64,000 nucleotides of DNA from Pseudodesulfovibrio nedwellii. Lineage in GTDB: Bacteria; Desulfobacterota; Desulfovibrionia; Desulfovibrionales; Desulfovibrionaceae. Shown here piece by piece: positions 25,544 to 38,616 of this stretch; the stretch's first letter is position 1, and every line of letters starts with the position of its first letter. The stretch spans positions 1,173,501-1,237,500 of the forward strand of contig NZ_AP026709.1 in NCBI RefSeq assembly GCF_027923765.1, in the 5' to 3' direction. A model generated the notes under the pieces. It saw only the letters and a program-made list of their open reading frames with translations. It searched no databases and had not been told where the DNA came from. A program made the position numbers and the translations under genes.

Positions 25544-25642
25544 GACACCACCTCTGCACACGACTTGCTCATTCTCCCGAGCATATGTATGGTCGCTCAC
25601 CTCATATTGAGATCATCCACACTTTCAACACACAATTTCCTC

Positions 25643-27637
25643 ATGAACGGATACTTCATTACCGGCACCGATACGGATGTCGGAAAAACATGCGTCACTG
25701 CCGCCCTTTTGCGGGCATTTCTCGACACTAACCAAAGTGCCCTGGCCATCAAACCGGTCCAAAGCGGCTGCATTGAAAGTACACATGGCCTGCGAGCTGA
25801 AGATGTCGAAGCATACGCCAGATTTTCTGCGCCCTATTTCCCTGATGGGTACCCCGAAGCCTGTTGCCACAAATACCGTCCAGCCTGTTCTCCGCACCTA
25901 GCGGCTGAAATGGCAGGAGAAACAGTAAGCGTGGACGAACTTGCCGATCAAGTCAGGAACATTGCCGCAGACCGGGATCTCGTCCTTGTTGAAGGGGCTG
26001 GTGGTGCTGCCGTACCACTCGGCAACGGGCAGACCATGCTTGATCTCATGCAGCGACTTGACCTACCGGTAATCATCGTTGCCGACAACAAATTGGGCGT
26101 CATCAACCACGCACTCATGACTATTGAAATGATTCGCGGTTGCGGACTCACTGTTGCAGGGATGGTCATAACAAACACTTCAACTCCTACCACAGACGAT
26201 GCACACCTCCGACAAAACAATGTCGAGACCATTGCCGGTTGGGGCGATGTTCCCGTTCTGGCTGATATCCCATACGTCGAGGGCGCTGACTTCGACACGG
26301 TTTTCATCCAGCACATGACCTCAGCTCTGGATATCCTGCCGGAATTTTCTTCACAAAACGTCGACGATATGGATTTTGACCGGGATCACATCTGGCATCC
26401 GTACACTTCTGCATTGGACCCACTGCCGACAGTCAAAGTCCGTAGTACTCGCGGCACCCGCATCGTTCTGGAAGATGGAAGTGAACTCATCGATGGTATG
26501 GCCTCATGGTGGTGTGCCATTCACGGCTATGCAAACCCAGCACTAAACAAAGCCGCACGCTCTCAATTGGGCCGCATGTCACACGTCATGTTCGGTGGAC
26601 TGACGCACGAACCTGCCATAAATTTATGTCGCACCCTACGCGATATGACGCCTGACGGACTTGACCATGTTTTTCTCGCGGACTCGGGGTCCGTCAGTGT
26701 AGAGGCTGCCATCAAAATGGCTCTGCAATACATGCAGGCGGACGGGCAGACAGAGCGCACCAAACTCTTCACGGTTCGCGGCGGCTATCACGGCGATACC
26801 TGCGGTGCCATGTCTGTCTGCGACCCCGACAACGGCATGCACCAACTTTTTTCAGGCCTTTTGCCACAGCAGATATTTGCTCCGCGCCCAGCCTGTCGTT
26901 TTGGTGAAGAGTATGACCCAGCCAGCCTTGATGAGGCCAGACGAATCTTCAAAGCCAACAGCCAAAAGATCGCTGCCATCATCGTGGAACCTATCGTGCA
27001 AGGCGCAGGCGGCATGTATTTCTATCACCCCGAATACCTACGTGGTCTGCGAAAATTGGCCGACGAACACGATGTTCTGCTTATCCTTGATGAAATAGCC
27101 ACTGGCTTCGGACGAACGGGTAAACTCTTTGCCTGTGAATGGAGTGACGTGACACCGGACATCATGTGCGTCGGCAAGGCTCTCACTGGCGGCACCATGA
27201 CACTGGCCGCAACTCTTGCGACAACTCACGTGGCACACACCATTTCCAAAAATGGCGGTGTCTTCATGCACGGCCCGACCTTCATGGGCAACCCGTTAGC
27301 GTGCGCCGTTGCTCAAGCCAGTCTCACCATCCTGCAACAGAAAAACTGGAAAACACAGGTCCACGACATCGAGCACTGGCTGAAAGAATCATTCGGCTCG
27401 TGTCGCACGCTCCCCGGAGTCGCAGATGTCCGGGTACTCGGCACCATCGGCGTGGTAGAAATGGACCGCCCGGTCAATGTCCAGAGCTTGCAGGACTGCT
27501 TCATCAAACGCGGTGTGTGGTTACGGCCCTTCGGCAAACTCATATATGTCATGCCGCCCTATATTATTACCCGCGAAGAAACGGAGCGCCTTGGTGCAGC
27601 CGTGTACGACGCAATCGCAAACAATGCTCATATATAA
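25643..27637 (+). CDS. bioDA: BioD-BioA fusion (dethiobiotin synthetase / DAPA aminotransferase)
   Basis: One 664-aa chain carrying two successive enzymes of biotin synthesis. Residues 1 to about 230 are BioD: P-loop GTDTDVGKT, AIKPVQSG, VEGAGGAAVPL, making dethiobiotin from DAPA with CO2 and ATP. Residues from about 235 are BioA: HIWHPYTS, GMASWWCAIHGY, HVMFGGLTHEPA, DEIATGFGRTGKLFACEW, and the PLP-lysine segment VGKALTGGTM, making DAPA from KAPA and SAM. The reaction order is BioA then BioD, so the product of one half feeds the other. The start at 25643 is chosen because BioD proteins begin at this point; no good ribosome site is visible and a longer N-terminus cannot be excluded. An SSS symporter gene starts 9 nt later. 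Confidence 0.93.
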   Translation: MNGYFITGTDTDVGKTCVTAALLRAFLDTNQSALAIKPVQSGCIESTHGLRAEDVEAYARFSAPYFPDGYPEACCHKYRPACSPHLAAEMAGETVSVDELADQVRNIAADRDLVLVEGAGGAAVPLGNGQTMLDLMQRLDLPVIIVADNKLGVINHALMTIEMIRGCGLTVAGMVITNTSTPTTDDAHLRQNNVETIAGWGDVPVLADIPYVEGADFDTVFIQHMTSALDILPEFSSQNVDDMDFDRDHIWHPYTSALDPLPTVKVRSTRGTRIVLEDGSELIDGMASWWCAIHGYANPALNKAARSQLGRMSHVMFGGLTHEPAINLCRTLRDMTPDGLDHVFLADSGSVSVEAAIKMALQYMQADGQTERTKLFTVRGGYHGDTCGAMSVCDPDNGMHQLFSGLLPQQIFAPRPACRFGEEYDPASLDEARRIFKANSQKIAAIIVEPIVQGAGGMYFYHPEYLRGLRKLADEHDVLLILDEIATGFGRTGKLFACEWSDVTPDIMCVGKALTGGTMTLAATLATTHVAHTISKNGGVFMHGPTFMGNPLACAVAQASLTILQQKNWKTQVHDIEHWLKESFGSCRTLPGVADVRVLGTIGVVEMDRPVNVQSLQDCFIKRGVWLRPFGKLIYVMPPYIITREETERLGAAVYDAIANNAHI

Positions 27638-31237: not shown

Positions 31238-31360
31238 AAGCTACGTCATAGTCATCTATAATATTACCAGTTGATATTCCCTTCTGCCTTGTGTTCCTTG
31301 CAATGTTTCACTAGGGTTCATTATGAATCGAATTGAACCAATCACACCGAAACAATCGCC

Positions 31361-32755
31361 ATGCCAATAGCCGATCCGACCGAGTTGATACACAGCCTGA
31401 CTGACAAAAAAGGACTTGCCGCGCTCCTTGATGTCCTCCCACTTGGCGTTGCCATCATGGACAAAGAAGGGACCCTGCTCGCTATCAACAGCACCTATGA
31501 AAACATCACGGGCGTTGAGGGGAAACAGGTCCTCGGCATAAAATGCCTCCATGCCTTGCGGTGTGATTTCTGTATGAAAAACTGCCCGGTCATGACCGAA
31601 TGGGAAGACCTAACTCCCCAGACCGTCGAAGCCAACATTCTCAATCGCAACAGAGAAAAGGTCTTCGTCAACCTGACTCTTGCCCCCCTCATGGGCGAAA
31701 ACAACACCATACAAGGTGCCATCGAGACCATCACACCAAGCGGAGGAGGCCCCCTCGACGAAGTCGCAGGCCATGTTCTGGGACTCGGCGAACTGGTTGG
31801 CCGAAGCCCGCAGGTGCGAAAGATATTTTCTATGACACCGTCCATTGCACAGACGGATTCCCCGGTACTGCTCACAGGAGAAACTGGCACTGGCAAGGAC
31901 ATGTTGGCCGAAGAAATTCACAACGAATCAGATCGTGACGGACCATTCGTCAAAGTTAATTGCGGCGCCCTGCCCGACCCTCTTCTTGAATCCGAACTCT
32001 TCGGACACAACAAAAACGCCTTTCCCGGAGCGGATCAGACCAAACAGGGACGACTACGAATGGCCCATGGCGGCACACTGTTTATCACGGAAATTGGCGA
32101 TCTTCCCATGCGACTGCAAACAAAACTCCTTGCTTACATGGACAATCATGTCGTGCGCCCCATGGGGTCCACCAAAGGAGTCCGTACAGACGTTCGCATC
32201 ATGGCGGCCAGTAACACAGATCTGGAAGAAGCCGTACGCAACAAAACATTTCGTCAAGACCTCCTCTACCGCCTCAACGTTATCCGACTCCACCTCCCTC
32301 CCTTGCGAGAACGTGGTGAAGATTTACTTTTGCTTCAGGACCACTTCCTGAAAATGTTTCAACTTCGCTACAAGAAAAAAGTTGAACGGTTCTCCAAAAA
32401 TGTGGATAACCTCCTCAAATCGTACGTATTCCCAGGTAATATTCGGGAATTACGAAACCTCATCGAGTATGCCGTCAACTTTTGCGACACCCCGGTCATC
32501 AGAATGCGCCATTTACCCGGGTACATCCTGCACGGTCATGGGTTACCGAAAAACCTTGTGACATCGCCCGACCAACACCCTCACACCCCGGGCGAAGTCA
32601 GAATGGCACGCCCTGAACGGTGGGAAGATGTTCAACGCAAAATGATACTGGAAGCCTTGGTCAAGACCGGCGGCCGCAAACAGCAGACGGCTGAACTCCT
32701 CGGATGGGGGCGAAGCACCTTGTGGCGCAAAATGAAACATTTCGGCATAGAGTAA
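31361..32755 (+). CDS. PAS-AAA+ regulator with degenerate sigma54 and Walker B motifs
   Basis: 464-aa regulator of the NtrC/bacterial enhancer-binding family. Seen: PAS domain (about 20-125) with a Cys cluster at 62, 68, 71 and 75 that could hold a metal or sense redox; AAA+ domain with intact Walker A GETGTGKD (about 174-181); and a C-terminal Fis-type helix-turn-helix (GRKQQTAELLGWGRSTLWRKMK). Two key elements are changed. The sigma54-contact loop GAFTGA reads NAFPGA (219-224), and the Walker B pair Asp-Glu reads Thr-Glu (243-244). Regulators lacking GAFTGA (for example TyrR) act on sigma70 promoters. A NifX-like gene follows 6 nt later, and a perfect palindrome and sigma70-like promoter lie just beyond it; it is the natural candidate to bind there. 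Confidence 0.88.
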   Translation: MPIADPTELIHSLTDKKGLAALLDVLPLGVAIMDKEGTLLAINSTYENITGVEGKQVLGIKCLHALRCDFCMKNCPVMTEWEDLTPQTVEANILNRNREKVFVNLTLAPLMGENNTIQGAIETITPSGGGPLDEVAGHVLGLGELVGRSPQVRKIFSMTPSIAQTDSPVLLTGETGTGKDMLAEEIHNESDRDGPFVKVNCGALPDPLLESELFGHNKNAFPGADQTKQGRLRMAHGGTLFITEIGDLPMRLQTKLLAYMDNHVVRPMGSTKGVRTDVRIMAASNTDLEEAVRNKTFRQDLLYRLNVIRLHLPPLRERGEDLLLLQDHFLKMFQLRYKKKVERFSKNVDNLLKSYVFPGNIRELRNLIEYAVNFCDTPVIRMRHLPGYILHGHGLPKNLVTSPDQHPHTPGEVRMARPERWEDVQRKMILEALVKTGGRKQQTAELLGWGRSTLWRKMKHFGIE

Positions 32756-32761
32756 ACAGCT

Positions 32762-33100
32762 ATGGAAAAAATTCTTATCCCCCTCACAGGCAACGAACTA
32801 GCTCCCAGGTTTGACATCGCCCTTGAAGTACTCATTGTTTCCGTAACCAGAGAAACAAGCGCCATGGGTAAAATCGATGAAAAAGTCGTCATTCTCGACA
32901 CCCCTTCCAGTGAAGCCATGTACCGAATGGTCATGTCAGAAAACATCAAGACCATCATCTGCGCAGGCATTGAAAAAGAGATATTCGATTTCTTGCGACG
33001 CAAGCGAATCAGTATCATAGATAACGTCTGTGGCCCGGTTGATGCTGTTCTCGAAGCATATCTCATGGGGAACCTCTCTCAGGGACAAATCTACTATTAA
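32762..33100 (+). CDS. NifX/NafY-type (dinitrogenase cofactor-like) protein
   Basis: 112-aa cytoplasmic protein with the NifX/MTH1175 ribonuclease-H-like fold: ILIPLTGNELAPRFDIALEVLIV at the start, KTIICAGIEKEIFDFLRRKRISIIDNVCGPVDAVLEAYLMG at the end. Family members bind or carry iron-molybdenum-type clusters, and many are of unknown role outside nitrogenase. No nif gene is present. Its Cys residues are few (two), so cluster binding is uncertain. It is co-transcribed with the PAS-AAA+ regulator 6 nt upstream and could be a co-sensor or modulator for it. Confidence 0.8.
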   Translation: MEKILIPLTGNELAPRFDIALEVLIVSVTRETSAMGKIDEKVVILDTPSSEAMYRMVMSENIKTIICAGIEKEIFDFLRRKRISIIDNVCGPVDAVLEAYLMGNLSQGQIYY

Positions 33101-33114
33101 CAAAGATTTGTTCC

Positions 33115-33169
33115 AAAATGTTTCACTTTGAAACATTTTAAACATCTTCCAACGTCCCAAAATGTTTCA
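33115..33169. promoter_or_regulatory. Perfect palindrome AAAATGTTTCA-N3-TGAAACATTTT plus third half-site
   Basis: The arms at 33115-33125 and 33129-33139 are an exact 11-bp inverted repeat. The same 11-mer recurs at 33159-33169, exactly 44 bp (about four helical turns) from the first arm. The promoter -35 box begins a further 44 bp on. The layout is that of a binding site for a dimeric or multimeric activator. Confidence 0.75.
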
Positions 33170-33202
33170 TTGTGTCCTTGAACTTTTATTCACATAAGAG
33201 TC

Positions 33203-33231
33203 TTGACGCAAACAATGATTTACTATTTATA
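33203..33231 (+). promoter_or_regulatory. Sigma70-like promoter for CBS/SLC13 operon
   Basis: TTGACG (33203-33208) and TTTATA (33226-33231) with a 17-nt spacer. No acceptable -24/-12 sigma54 element was found between the palindrome and the CBS gene. Confidence 0.6.
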
Positions 33232-33413
33232 GGAATGCGAACCCTCTTAAATGCTTGGCCCGCGTAATGTTACGCAATGTGAAATTGGGGGCAATTTCCG
33301 GGCTAATCCTCAAGGGGTTCAACTGACACAGCTGGTACACTTGAAACTTTCCATGACAAGGGAGGTAAGCGTGCATCATTGTGCAAACAACACTTCTCGG
33401 GAGGAAGGATTAC

Positions 33414-33929
33414 ATGAAAATCAAAGACCTGATGACTCCGGTAGAGGATTACCAGACCCTTGGTCTGGAAACCTCTCTGAGCGACGTCGTGAGCGCCTTG
33501 CACGGCAGCAAACACCGCGACATCCTCATTGTGGATGAAAACGGTGCCTTTGCAGGCGTGGTGACCATGACGGACATCATCGTTGCGCTGGAACCCAACT
33601 ACAAGAAGCTCAACAAAACCGATCTGGGCAGCGACATTCTGTCCAACCGATTTGTGGCCGAACAGTTTAAAGAATTCAATCTCTGGACCAACACCTTGAC
33701 CGACCTCTGTAGCAAGAGCCTCGACCTCAAGGCCAAAGACGTCATGCATGTCCCCGAAGACACCCATTACTTAGATCAAGATAGCGACTTGGAGCATGGT
33801 GTACATCTCTACATTATCGATACTCCCCAGCCCTTGATCGTCCGTAGTAACGGCAAAGTGGAAGGAATCCTCCGCATGGCCGATGTCTTTGATGAAATCA
33901 TTAATCGCATGAGCGCCTGTGCCGGCTAG
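33414..33929 (+). CDS. Tandem CBS-domain protein
   Basis: 171-aa cytoplasmic protein made of two CBS domains: MKIKDLMTPVEDYQTLGLETSLSDVVSAL...DILIVDENGAFAGVVTMTDII and KAKDVMHVPEDTHYLDQDSDLEHGVHLYIIDTPQPLIVRSNGKVEGILRMADVFDEI. Such pairs bind adenine nucleotides and report energy state. GGAGGAAGGATTAC precedes the ATG at 33414; the longer frame from 33381 has no such support. It lies 24 nt upstream of an SLC13 carrier gene and may regulate it. Confidence 0.86.
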   Translation: MKIKDLMTPVEDYQTLGLETSLSDVVSALHGSKHRDILIVDENGAFAGVVTMTDIIVALEPNYKKLNKTDLGSDILSNRFVAEQFKEFNLWTNTLTDLCSKSLDLKAKDVMHVPEDTHYLDQDSDLEHGVHLYIIDTPQPLIVRSNGKVEGILRMADVFDEIINRMSACAG

Positions 33930-33953
33930 GCCTTGGTGAACAAGGAGATAATC

Positions 33954-35429
33954 ATGGAAACAGCTCAAGCTGCCAAACCCTCATTCGACTGGAAACGCCT
34001 GGTGTTCATGCTCCTCGGCGTCGTACTCTTCGCCGTTGTCTACTTCGCTCCGGCATGGCCGGACGCAATTGACCCCATGGGTCAGCACTTTCCCCTGCCT
34101 ACGGAAGCTAAAGGTGCCATCGCCGTTTTCCTGCTGGCCGGTACATGGTGGGTCTTTGAAGTCGTCCCCATCGGCGTCACTTCATTAATGATCGGTATTC
34201 TTCAGGTCATGTTCCTGATTCGCCCAGCTAAAGTGGCGTTCAAGGATTTCATGGATCCGTCCGTTCTCTTTATTTTCGCCTCCATCATGATCGGTCTGGT
34301 TTTCACGAAGACTGGCCTGACAAAACGACTTGCATACAAAATGCTTGATGTCGTAGGCGAACGTACCTCAATGATCTATCTCGGCGTCTTCGTGGTCACG
34401 GCCGCCCTGACCCACATTATGGCGCACACCGCTGTGGCAGCCACCATATATCCGCTGCTGCTCGCCATTTACGCATTGTACGGTGAAGGCGACAAACCCA
34501 CTAAGTTCGGTAAGGGATTGTTCATAGGTATGGCCTACGTGGCCGGTGCCGGTTCCGTTGTCACCCTGCTTGGTGCAGCCCGGGGAGCAGTAGCTCTCGG
34601 CTTCTACAAGGAAATCGTCAACGTAGACATCGGCTTCTTCGAGCTGAGTTACTACATGGCACCCATAGGTTGGGCCATGACCTTCCTGCTGTGGGGCTTC
34701 TTCATGATCGTATGCAAGCCTGAAAAAGACCGTATTCCCGGCCTGAGAGAAAAAGCGCGTGAACTCAACGCAAAAATGGGCCGCTTAACCCGTGATGAGA
34801 TCATGGCTGCCGTCATCGTTGGTGGTGTCATCTGTATCATGTCCTTACGCTCCTTTGTCCCGGCCCTTCAAGCTGTAGACAAAACCGCCATCATTCTTTG
34901 CTCCTCAGTTCTCTTCTTTGTCTTCAAGATCCTTGATCTAAAAGACCTCGAAGACATCCCCTGGAACATCATCCTGCTGTTCGCCGGTGCCATGTCCATT
35001 GGTTTCTGTCTCTGGGAAACCGGTGCAGCAAAATGGATGGCCGTTAACTGGCTGGTCATGTTCCAGGATGCGAACTGGTTTATCTTCGTCATGTCCATCG
35101 CCTTCTTCGTCATGATGATGACCAACTTCATCATGAACGTGGCGGCCATCGCCATATCGTTACCGGTTGCCCTCGTTATCGCGCCTTACCTTGGCGTGGC
35201 TCCCGAAGTCATCCTGTACGCCTCTCTGGTTGTTGCTGGTATGCCTTTCCTGCTCCTTGTCGGCGCAGCTCCCAACGCCATTGCATACGACTCTGGACAG
35301 TTCACCACGGGTGAATTCTTCGGCTGGGGCGTTCCCGCTTCCATCCTGCTCATGGTTGTTGTCGGTCTTGCAATCCTCGTCATCTGGCCGATTATGGGTA
35401 TGCCCATCACGCTGCCCGCAGGCGGTTAA
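33954..35429 (+). CDS. DASS/SLC13-family sodium-coupled anion transporter
   Basis: Inner-membrane carrier of 491 aa with about 11-12 segments. Seen: PLPTEAKGAIAVFLLAGTWWVFEVVPIGVTSLM near the start, and MTNFIMNVAAIAISLPVALVIAP and AAPNAIAYDSGQFTTGEFF near the end, matching the substrate- and Na+-site motifs of the divalent anion:Na+ symporters. Likely substrates are dicarboxylates or sulfate. AAGGAG precedes the ATG at 33954. It lies in the same operon as the CBS gene and ends at a terminator. Confidence 0.9.
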   Translation: METAQAAKPSFDWKRLVFMLLGVVLFAVVYFAPAWPDAIDPMGQHFPLPTEAKGAIAVFLLAGTWWVFEVVPIGVTSLMIGILQVMFLIRPAKVAFKDFMDPSVLFIFASIMIGLVFTKTGLTKRLAYKMLDVVGERTSMIYLGVFVVTAALTHIMAHTAVAATIYPLLLAIYALYGEGDKPTKFGKGLFIGMAYVAGAGSVVTLLGAARGAVALGFYKEIVNVDIGFFELSYYMAPIGWAMTFLLWGFFMIVCKPEKDRIPGLREKARELNAKMGRLTRDEIMAAVIVGGVICIMSLRSFVPALQAVDKTAIILCSSVLFFVFKILDLKDLEDIPWNIILLFAGAMSIGFCLWETGAAKWMAVNWLVMFQDANWFIFVMSIAFFVMMMTNFIMNVAAIAISLPVALVIAPYLGVAPEVILYASLVVAGMPFLLLVGAAPNAIAYDSGQFTTGEFFGWGVPASILLMVVVGLAILVIWPIMGMPITLPAGG

Positions 35430-35496: not shown

Positions 35497-35523
35497 CATA
35501 AAACATAAAACCACGTGAGAATC

Positions 35524-36945
35524 ATGGAAAAACTCGAAGCCCTCTTTGATCACATCGCGGCCCGGGTCAACGTCAACTTGAAGCCCATGGGCATTGACGT
35601 TCGCCCCCTGCTTAATAATGCTATCCCAAGAGAGAGACATCTCCTCTACTATGCGTTTTATGCTCTGACCGAAGACCATCCAATTAGCTTCAGATTCACC
35701 AACTCCAATCTCTCCGGTTCCTATTTCCTCGGCAAAACACAGGTTGATCGCTCTGTTCTGTATAAATCAGATATTCGAGGCGATGAGCTCAAACAAAAAG
35801 GTGACGTAGTTGAATTCAATGGCGTCAAAACCAAACTCTTCTACGACGAAGTCATCCGTATCACCAACTCTTTCCTGGTAAAGACACTGGTGCACAATCA
35901 ATCAAAGAACCCTGAAATTCCTGAGGTATTCCGCATCCTCAACACCGTGGCCATGCACTATTCGAATATCCACGGGACCACCACGGAAGGCGTTTATCTC
36001 GGTCCCTTCTCCACAGTAGATCTCTCCGTCATGCACAATTGTGTTGTGGGCGACTTCGCTTATGTACAGGCAGGCGACCTTTCCCGTGTAAACATTGAAC
36101 CAGGACGCATCTGGCTCAAGGCAGGAGACCTGTTCGAATTCAACTATGTCTATCCCGAAGGCGTGGTGGATAAATACGTTAAACTCGACGAGAACGGCAA
36201 ACTCACAGGACAATTCATTGAATACGTGGACGACTTCAAAGAAGACTTCGTTCCAATCTATTCGACTGCCGCACCTGAAACAGACGTCATCATTCCAGAA
36301 TCCGCTTATGTCAGCCCCTATGCCGTCATCAAGGGACACTGTGAAATCGGTGAAAACGCTCTTATCGTTCAACGAGCCCACGTCGAAAATTCCATCATCG
36401 GAGAGGGAGCCAACGCACAGGAGAACTGCTACATCAAGAACTCCATATTCGAAGGCAACAACGTCACAGCTCACGGCGGCAAGGTCATCCATACCCGCAA
36501 TGGCAAAAACGTATTCGTCGGGTTCAATTCATTTGTCCACGGCACCGAATCCTGTCCCATCATCATTGGCCAAGATTCCATTGTCATGCCCCATACTATT
36601 ATTGATGCCGAAGAGCCTATCGAGATACCTGAAAATTCGGCAATCTGGGGATATGTAACCAAGCAAGCCGATCTCGCAACTCAGTGCGTCAGCTTGGATG
36701 ATCTGGCAAAAACAACCGAAATAACCTTAGGTAATGCCACATTCAAAGGTGATGGCATGGCTTTTGTAAAGGCATTCAAACATCGCATCGATCACATCCG
36801 TGAAGAAAACGGTGCGTATTTCGACGGCTCGGATAAAACCCGCGGCCATGCACAGAAGACTCAGGACGCATGCTTCAACATCCTCCAGCCCTTCCAGTCC
36901 GGGCCGGAAGCAGGCATGTATCCTACCATGACAATCGGCGACTAG
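35524..36945 (+). CDS. Left-handed beta-helix (hexapeptide repeat) protein of unknown function
   Basis: 473-aa cytoplasmic protein. Its centre and C-terminal half contain hexapeptide repeats of the left-handed beta-helix kind, for example VIIPESAYVSPYAVIKGHCEIGENALIVQRAHVENSIIG and CPIIIGQDSIVMPHTIIDAEEPIEIPENSAIWGYV. These are usual in acyl- or nucleotidyl-transferases and in gamma-carbonic-anhydrase-like proteins. No catalytic signature could be fixed. The N-terminal 150 residues look unlike any family I know. The ATG at 35524 is preceded by GAGA. It is surrounded by two Na+-linked transporters. Confidence 0.72.
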   Translation: MEKLEALFDHIAARVNVNLKPMGIDVRPLLNNAIPRERHLLYYAFYALTEDHPISFRFTNSNLSGSYFLGKTQVDRSVLYKSDIRGDELKQKGDVVEFNGVKTKLFYDEVIRITNSFLVKTLVHNQSKNPEIPEVFRILNTVAMHYSNIHGTTTEGVYLGPFSTVDLSVMHNCVVGDFAYVQAGDLSRVNIEPGRIWLKAGDLFEFNYVYPEGVVDKYVKLDENGKLTGQFIEYVDDFKEDFVPIYSTAAPETDVIIPESAYVSPYAVIKGHCEIGENALIVQRAHVENSIIGEGANAQENCYIKNSIFEGNNVTAHGGKVIHTRNGKNVFVGFNSFVHGTESCPIIIGQDSIVMPHTIIDAEEPIEIPENSAIWGYVTKQADLATQCVSLDDLAKTTEITLGNATFKGDGMAFVKAFKHRIDHIREENGAYFDGSDKTRGHAQKTQDACFNILQPFQSGPEAGMYPTMTIGD

Positions 36946-36996: not shown

Positions 36997-38616
36997 ATGT
37001 CCCAATCCCTGACCCAGGCCTTTGGCAGAAACTTTCTCGGCAACGCGCCGAGCTGGTACAAGTTAGCCATTCTGGCTTTTCTTGTCATCAACCCGATTCT
37101 TGTCTACACCGTCGGTCCGTTTATAGCGGGCTGGGTGTTGATCGCCGAATTCATCTTCACCTTGGCAATGGCTTTGAAATGCTATCCGTTGCCTCCGGGT
37201 GGTCTGCTGGCCATTCAGGCAGTTTTTCTTGGCCTGACCAAACCAGAAACGGTCTACCATGAAGCACTAAACAACTTTGAAGTCATCCTGCTCCTGATCT
37301 TCATGGTCGCAGGCATCTACTTCATGAAAGACTTCCTGCAATTCACCTTCACCCGCATCCTGACCAAAGTACGCTCAAAAATCGTCATCTCCCTGCTGTT
37401 CTGTTTTGCAGGCGCATTCCTGTCCGCTTTCCTCGATGCTTTGACCGTTACCGCTGTCATCATCGCCGTGGCCTACGGGTTCTATAATGTCTATCATCGA
37501 TACGCCTCCGGCAAAACAATGAGCTGCTCCCATGACCTCTGTTCCGATGAGGCCGTCAAAGAAGCTGCCCGCCAGGAACTTCTGGACTTTCGAGCCTTTC
37601 TGCGCAACCTGATGATGCACGGTGCAGTTGGTACTGCTCTCGGTGGCGTCTGCACTATCGTTGGTGAGCCACAGAACCTGCTCATCGGTTCCGAAATGGG
37701 CTGGCACTTCATTCCTTTCTTCCTCAAAGTTGCTCCTGTCTCCATGCCCGTGCTCGCCACTGGCCTGTTGACCTGTGTGCTCGTGGAAAAGTTCCATATC
37801 TTCGGATACGGTGCACAAATGCCGGGCAATATCCGCTCACATTTGCTTGAAACCGCCATTCAAATGGAAGAAAAACGCGGCATGCGCGGCAAAGCCAAAT
37901 TGATCGTTCAGGCCCTGATCGGTGTCTGGTTAATCGTTTCTTTGGCCATGCATCTGGCCGCTGTCGGTATCATCGGCCTGTCTGTCATCGTTCTGTTGAC
38001 CTGTTTCAACGGTTTCACTGATGAACACCAGCTTGGACCAGCATTCGAAGAGGCTCTGCCTTTCACCGCCCTGCTCGTGGTTTTCTTCTCCATTGTCGGT
38101 GTCATCCACGACCAACATCTGTTCGCTCCGGTCATGGACATCGTTCTGTCCATGAAGGGACAAACACAGCTCGCAGCCTACTATGTGGCTAACGGTGTCC
38201 TGTCCATGATCTCGGACAATGTGTTTGTGGCGACTGTGTACATCTCGGAAACCAAGATGCACTTCACCAACCTGCTCGGCACCTTCCCCGGTGTGGAAGA
38301 TAGCGTCGCTCTCATGGAAAGGCTGACCGACGGTCATCTGGACCGCGCACAGACCATTTTGTCTCTGCCCGCAGCCATCCAGGGTCAGGTTACCGACATG
38401 ATGAACCACTTCGACAAGCTGGCAGTCGCCATTAATACGGGTACCAACATCCCGTCCGTGGCAACTCCCAACGGTCAGGCCGCCTTCCTATTCCTGCTGA
38501 CATCGGCTCTTGCCCCGGTCATCAGGCTCTCATACGGCCGCATGGTTGTACTGGCTCTGCCTTACACCATCACAATGTCGATAATGGGTCTCATCGCCAC
38601 CTACTACTTCATGTAA
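36997..38616 (+). CDS. nhaB: Na+/H+ antiporter of the NhaB type
   Basis: 539-aa inner-membrane antiporter expelling Na+ in exchange for H+. Seen: [28 protein letters not shown] at the start, [54 protein letters not shown], and [27 protein letters not shown], all typical of NhaB. AGGAG lies 10 nt upstream of the ATG. With the SLC13 carrier upstream it could recycle Na+ brought in by symport. It has its own strong terminator. Confidence 0.94.

Follow-up and report, generated by a model that had tools for sequence, protein, structure and literature searches.

The window analysed here is a 64,000-nucleotide stretch of the Pseudodesulfovibrio nedwellii contig NZ_AP026709.1. It carries a gene for an enhancer-binding-type regulator, here termed REG, together with a NifX-like gene and an operon whose first gene encodes a CBS-domain protein, with candidate regulator sites and a promoter in the gap between the two latter genes. 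In window coordinates, the features are:

31305..31320, + strand: GTTTCA-N4-GGTTCA direct repeat, a likely operator for REG in the promoter of the REG gene (from pattern conservation)
31361..32755, + strand: REG, regulator with PAS, AAA+ and Fis-type HTH domains and loop NAFPGA (open reading frame, profile matches, alignment)
32762..33100, + strand: NifX-like (Nitro_FeMo-Co) partner gene (PF02579, 26.7 bits, cut-off 26.3)
33115..33139, no strand: distal site, AAAATGTTTCA-N3-TGAAACATTTT palindrome (exact arms 33115-33125 and 33129-33139; GTTTCA core 33120-33125)
33159..33169, + strand: proximal (third) half-site (GTTTCA core 33164-33169)
33203..33231, + strand: sigma70-type promoter TTGACG-N17-TTTATA of the CBS operon (TTGACG 33203-33208, TTTATA 33226-33231; conserved in the loop-less orthologue rows defined below)
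33414..33929, + strand: CBS-domain gene, first of the operon in the window (profile match)
33933..35429, + strand: SLC13/DASS transporter gene (Pfam PF00939, 136 bits; candidate substrates sulfate or dicarboxylates)
35515..36945, + strand: hexapeptide-repeat protein gene (profile match)
36997..38616, + strand: NhaB-type antiporter gene (profile match; presumed operon member from order and spacing)

Elsewhere in the window, an exact AAAATGTTTCA half-site lies within the REG coding sequence (32351-32361), and a single long open reading frame at 25565-27637 encodes what we take, from its motifs by eye, to be a BioD-like protein joined to a BioA-like one.

The REG open reading frame encodes 464 amino acids and matches PAS, Sigma54_activat, AAA lid and Fis-type HTH models. 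The scores of the sigma54-type AAA+ domain (PF00158, 203.6 bits against a cut-off of 20.2) and of the Fis-type HTH (PF02954, 54.3 bits against 22) bear out the AAA+ fold and HTH that an earlier note had read from this DNA, and alignment with orthologues places NAFPGA at residues 219-224, where the same note had put it. This loop departs from GAFTGA with Thr or Ser at position 4; residue 243, in Walker B, is Thr, and Glu244 is retained. None of the 30 enhancer-binding places examined in the same genome except REG combines a loop Pro with a Walker B Thr; the remaining 29 have GAFTGA, or variants with Thr or Ser at position 4, together with a Walker B Asp. A further observation in this genome concerns an enhancer-binding-type gene (L157, G000:C1:1527907-1528811) with two stop codons inside one match, which is perhaps broken. 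REG scored below the cut-offs that define TyrR (NCBIfam NF008085, 212.2 bits against 576), DhaR (NCBIfam, 227 against 551) and NtrC (TIGR01818, 278.6 against 558.6); the comparison with TyrR drawn in the earlier note concerns a likeness of working mode and not membership of the TyrR family.

To place REG among its relatives, we searched for orthologues, which were found at E <= 1e-90 in 34 of the 36 genomes of the genus, its own genome counted, and at E <= 1e-100 in 37 of 149 genomes of the family, 8 of which belong to the genus. The 53 orthologue rows analysed comprise the window plus 32 stretches from the genus and 20 from elsewhere in the family. The last were drawn from 29 matched genomes outside the genus, a further four of which were used for the loop alone (GAYTGA in G146; GAFTGA in G088, G093 and G114) and five of which were left out (G131, G117, G142, G164 and G153). 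Rows without GAFTGA, hereafter loop-less, number 20 (the window and L062-L080), and the other 33 have GAFTGA; genome G008, of the same species as the window and with the loop NAFPGA, stands outside the 20 loop-less rows. A NifX-like match adjoins REG in 51 of the 53 rows, and CBS and SLC13 matches are present in 45/53 and 46/53 of the stretches, respectively. That the operon occurs without REG was considered and rejected, since G002 and G011, which lack REG within the genus, showed no close SLC13 gene either, having just SLC13 paralogues of 25-28% identity. Counts for the NifX-CBS gap refer to 44 of the 53 rows, because nine (L103, L104, L107, L108 and L110-L114) are without a NifX-like or without a CBS match. 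By eye, Cys62 and Cys75 of REG occur in 53/53 rows and Cys71 in 52/53, with Cys68 variable; the PAS domain with its Cys residues, or the NifX-like partner, may provide signal input.

The loop reads N/H-A/S-F/L-P-G-A/S in the 20 loop-less rows and GAFTGA in the remaining 33, with Pro at position 4 in 20/20 of the former and Thr in 33/33 of the latter. Counted by genome and with G008 included, 21 of 34 genus genomes lack GAFTGA and 13 have it. In a midpoint-rooted tree, the 20 loop-less rows form one clade (support 100/100) nested among GAFTGA rows, six of which (L081-L086) cluster with it in a group of 26 rows (100/99). A tree of the SLC13 and hexapeptide proteins, built on 44 of the 53 rows, has a branch that separates the same 20 rows from the others, with weaker support (76/78, and 82% of 200 bootstrap trees); it also places the GAFTGA row L084 inside a well-supported group of 21 with the loop-less rows (99/93), which we count against the switch proposed below. 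A single loss of the loop with vertical descent is the simplest account of these sequences. The earlier note had also counted the Walker B substitution among the parts that fit a former sigma54 activator. The substitution is present, but as a sign of lost function it was rejected: Thr is found in 53/53 orthologue rows, 33 of them with GAFTGA, and must for that reason be older than the loop change. Thr in Walker B is thus a trait of the whole orthologue family, even where GAFTGA and a sigma54-type site are retained.

At thirteen REG positions the GAFTGA rows are conserved and the loop-less rows differ from them; eleven of these positions lie within residues 168-286, positions 219 and 222 being in the loop. 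The HTH, by comparison, kept 15 of the 16 positions that are invariant in genus GAFTGA rows unchanged in all 20 loop-less rows. Whole-gene dN/dS was 0.036-0.187 in eight loop-less pairs and 0.024-0.185 in five GAFTGA pairs; for the AAA+ part of the loop-less pairs it was 0-0.096, the AAA+ and HTH slices being approximate and the WIN-L064 pair saturated at synonymous sites. That REG is a decaying gene was therefore rejected, as these values show strong purifying selection. The DNA-binding domain of sigma54 (RpoN) was found in 34/36 genus genomes and in 21/21 loop-less genomes; both misses, G027 and G029, are genomes 81-82% complete.

Between NifX and CBS, the window contains the exact 11-bp palindrome of the earlier note as well as its third identical half-site 44 bp away, at 33159-33169. 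The palindrome itself was not the conserved unit, however, and comparison across species replaced it by GTTTCA cores at 10- and 44-bp spacing. At no more than one mismatch, TGTTTCANNNTGAAACA occurs at one place in the 3.76-Mb genome, as does a reversed control pattern, and a wider regulon for the palindrome was rejected on this count. The half-site alone, with at most one mismatch, has 5 matches in the window against 2.6 expected, a number reached in 13 of 100 shuffles; as it is not rare in the window, weight rests on conservation between species. With up to one mismatch allowed, the distal GTTTCA core lies at -83 from the -35 element in 19/20 loop-less rows and the proximal core at -39, again in 19/20, the exception being L077 in both cases (-84 and -40). 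Orthologous operons without the sites had been named in the earlier note as evidence against its reading; none was found among the loop-less rows, all 20 of which have the pair at 44-bp spacing with at most one mismatch per core. The pair is also present in the GAFTGA rows of the genus, in 12 of 13 with L089 as the exception, and 6 of the 11 family rows have a pair at 44-bp spacing. Measured from the GG of the -24 element, the two cores of these genus rows lie between -124 and -128 and between -80 and -84, and since this distance to the sigma54 site is also fixed, fixed spacing alone is no proof of contact with polymerase. An additional GTTTCA core at -16 is present in 16/20 loop-less rows and absent in the window and L062-L064.

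The NifX-CBS gap could be read in 24 GAFTGA rows, and all of them have a sigma54-type -24/-12 site downstream of the GTTTCA cores; counted from the start of the gap, its -24 GG lies at 132-153 bases in the genus rows (n=13) and at 125-237 bases in the family rows (n=11). We made a sigma54 profile from these 24 sites and scored it leave-one-out. Scores were 16.9-23.5 in the genus rows (n=13) and 10.1-21.2 in the family rows (n=11), the lowest family scores being the least sure because the sites were initially picked with a hand-made consensus. They were reached by none of 100 shuffles in 20 of the 24 rows, by one in L090 and L102 and by three in L100 and L109. Two family rows, at 10.1 and 10.4, are slightly above the loop-less maximum, which is 8.5 across the 20 loop-less rows (window and L063, reached by 3 and 2 of 100 shuffles, respectively). 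In the window this value belongs to a partial sigma54-like site at 33255-33271, TTGGCCCGCGTAATGTT, without the GC of the -12 element, and scanning the NifX-CBS gap yielded no -24/-12 target promoter for REG; a hidden sigma54 promoter in the loop-less gap was accordingly rejected. It nevertheless could be argued that REG with its changed loop still activates sigma54 polymerase, at this weak site or at a promoter elsewhere, as the partial match, the strong constraint on the AAA+ domain and the retention of RpoN would all be expected in that case. We regard this as very improbable, given that among the other loop-less rows the partial site recurs in L063 and, degraded, in L062 only, that the palindrome is unique in the genome, and that a Thr-to-Pro change at the same loop position inactivated NifA, as reported in PMC4641369.

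The loop-less rows share a different promoter. The TTGACG-N17-TTTATA element noted earlier was confirmed at 33203-33231 and is conserved: the -35 is TTGACG in 18 and TTGACC in 2 of the 20 loop-less rows, and the -10 at N17 is TNTATA in 19 and TCAATA in one. The idea that a sigma70 promoter already existed in the gaps of GAFTGA rows was considered and rejected, as 4 of 24 rows match (L081, L085, L086 and L097) and their starts and spacings differ. Having no working GAFTGA loop and a conserved sigma70-type promoter adjoining its candidate sites, REG would by its sequence fit the class of regulators without GAFTGA that work with sigma70. The -10 is far from consensus, which counts against the proposed switch, and the conserved block exceeds a plain promoter (CTTGACGCA ... 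AATTGCTATCTATAG). Both features might indicate that a different sigma factor reads the block, or that part of it serves as the site of a further regulator, which seems to us quite improbable, as TTGACG with a 17-bp spacer fits sigma70 and no alternative candidate was identified.

Gene content differs as well. Between the sigma54 site and CBS, 13/13 genus GAFTGA rows encode a receiver-like protein of ~125 amino acids, its gene being split between two frames in L093; at the position of the expected phospho-acceptor Asp, inspection by eye showed Gly in 11/13 copies and Asp in 2/13. In a search across the genus, 12 GAFTGA genomes showed this gene at the operon (E <= 1e-22, identity 45-100%), and the thirteenth, G003, showed part of it (E 3e-14, 41%). 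The gene is gone from the 20 loop-less rows, and in the 21 loop-less genomes the matches listed lie elsewhere and reach at most E 5e-16 with 27-34% identity. The loop-less row L080 has a NifX-CBS gap of 691 bases with repeated ACTGGAA-like pieces, without a receiver-like gene. The joint change of loop, promoter and gene content is unreplicated, because it represents one evolutionary event.

REG's own promoter presents a further repeat, GTTTCANTNNGRTTCA (GTTTCA-N4-GRTTCA), found at no more than one mismatch upstream of REG in 19/20 loop-less rows, 6/13 genus GAFTGA rows and 0/20 family rows; the six are L081-L086, the rows that group with the loop-less clade. In most of its rows the repeat overlaps a TTGNCN-N17-TAYGRT promoter, the -10 of the window not being clear-cut. 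The direct-repeat pattern has 15 places in the genome at up to one mismatch versus 3 for the reversed control, and the exact matches are two: REG's own promoter and 1581897 (G000:C1:1581897-1581912, L125), the latter a possible further target. This arrangement suggests that REG represses its own gene and that this autorepression would be older than the switch. By extension, loop-less REG could be a repressor or brake only, lowering an operon that runs on its own sigma70 promoter, much as at the REG gene, where in most rows the operator extends over the -10 region, a location typical of repressor sites. At the CBS operon, in contrast, the conserved cores precede the -35 and occupy the place of the old activating sites, and the poor -10 means that the promoter should need help; we thus favour activation and consider pure repression unlikely.

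The reading we prefer, and hold to be likely, is that a local regulator underwent one switch from sigma54 to sigma70 within a genus. The ancestor of REG would have been an enhancer-binding activator that worked locally with sigma54 on the CBS-SLC13 operon. In a single lineage of the genus, the GAFTGA loop became N/H-A/S-F/L-P-G-A/S, and along with this change the -24/-12 promoter and the receiver-like gene ahead of CBS were lost; the HTH domain was retained, as were the two GTTTCA cores at their 44-bp spacing. A TTGAC-N17-TNTATA promoter now lies 39 bp past the nearer GTTTCA core. The clade, the loss of the loop, the promoter exchange, the retained sites, the purifying selection and the presence of RpoN are seen directly in the sequences, and the sigma factor and the direction of control are inferred from them. 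On this reading REG, probably as an AAA+ oligomer on the GTTTCA sites, would help housekeeping RNA polymerase at this CBS promoter with its good -35 and poor -10, probably also repressing its own gene. The earlier proposal of a former sigma54 activator now at a sigma70-type promoter thus gains support from the nesting of the clade and from the promoter exchange between orthologues. More tentatively, and as a possibility rather than an expectation, REG may already have been bound at a sigma70-type promoter, that of the REG gene, before the switch, since the six GAFTGA rows grouping with the clade share the operator; sigma54 contact would then have been dropped and loop 1 re-tooled rather than discarded (Pro in 20/20, AAA+ tightly constrained), with REG working with housekeeping polymerase from the old enhancer sites.

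Regulators that lack GAFTGA and act with sigma70 are already known, as two papers describe. TyrR, DhaR and HupR are such relatives (PMC3162934), as is VpsR (PMC10274813), and all four resemble REG in being described as formerly of sigma54 type with GAFTGA changed or missing. Some 110 homologues have minor loop defects, with Pro preferred at position 4 (PMC3162934). The NtrC proteins of R. capsulatus and Caulobacter, like REG of enhancer-binding type and without GAFTGA, are reported to act at sigma70 promoters, and RcNtrC requires ATP binding and not hydrolysis (PMC10274813); in these proteins the loop is deleted and a receiver domain is present, whereas REG has loop substitutions and a PAS domain. 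REG itself presumably binds ATP. By the cut-offs given above REG is neither TyrR nor DhaR, and what sets it apart from both NtrC proteins is that close relatives retain the same operon in its sigma54 state.

The hosts of DVU2960 and REG belong to the same bacterial family, and DVU2106 has NifX-like neighbours and is said to be linked with NifX-like proteins, as REG is. DVU2960 of D. vulgaris Hildenborough has the loop GAFPGA, with the same Thr-to-Pro change as REG, and no known regulon or sigma54 target, and it is reported not to have bound the DVU2957 promoter; it differs from REG in lying inside another operon, beside a GAFTGA regulator (PMC4641369). DVU2106, the sigma54 regulator of the orp operon, differs from REG in its loop, GAFTDA, and in its target operon (PMC4641369).

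In the open-licence literature we found no paper describing both the sigma54 and the sigma70 state of one operon within a genus, and the crossing from ATP-driven sigma54 to sigma70 has so far been known mainly from distant end points. For REG, close relatives that share its target genes allow a comparison of loop, promoter, enhancer sites and operon content, which makes the order of steps and the minimal changes testable by loop and promoter swaps. If the switch is true, the genus may offer a natural comparison of the states before and after a regulator's conversion from sigma54 to sigma70.
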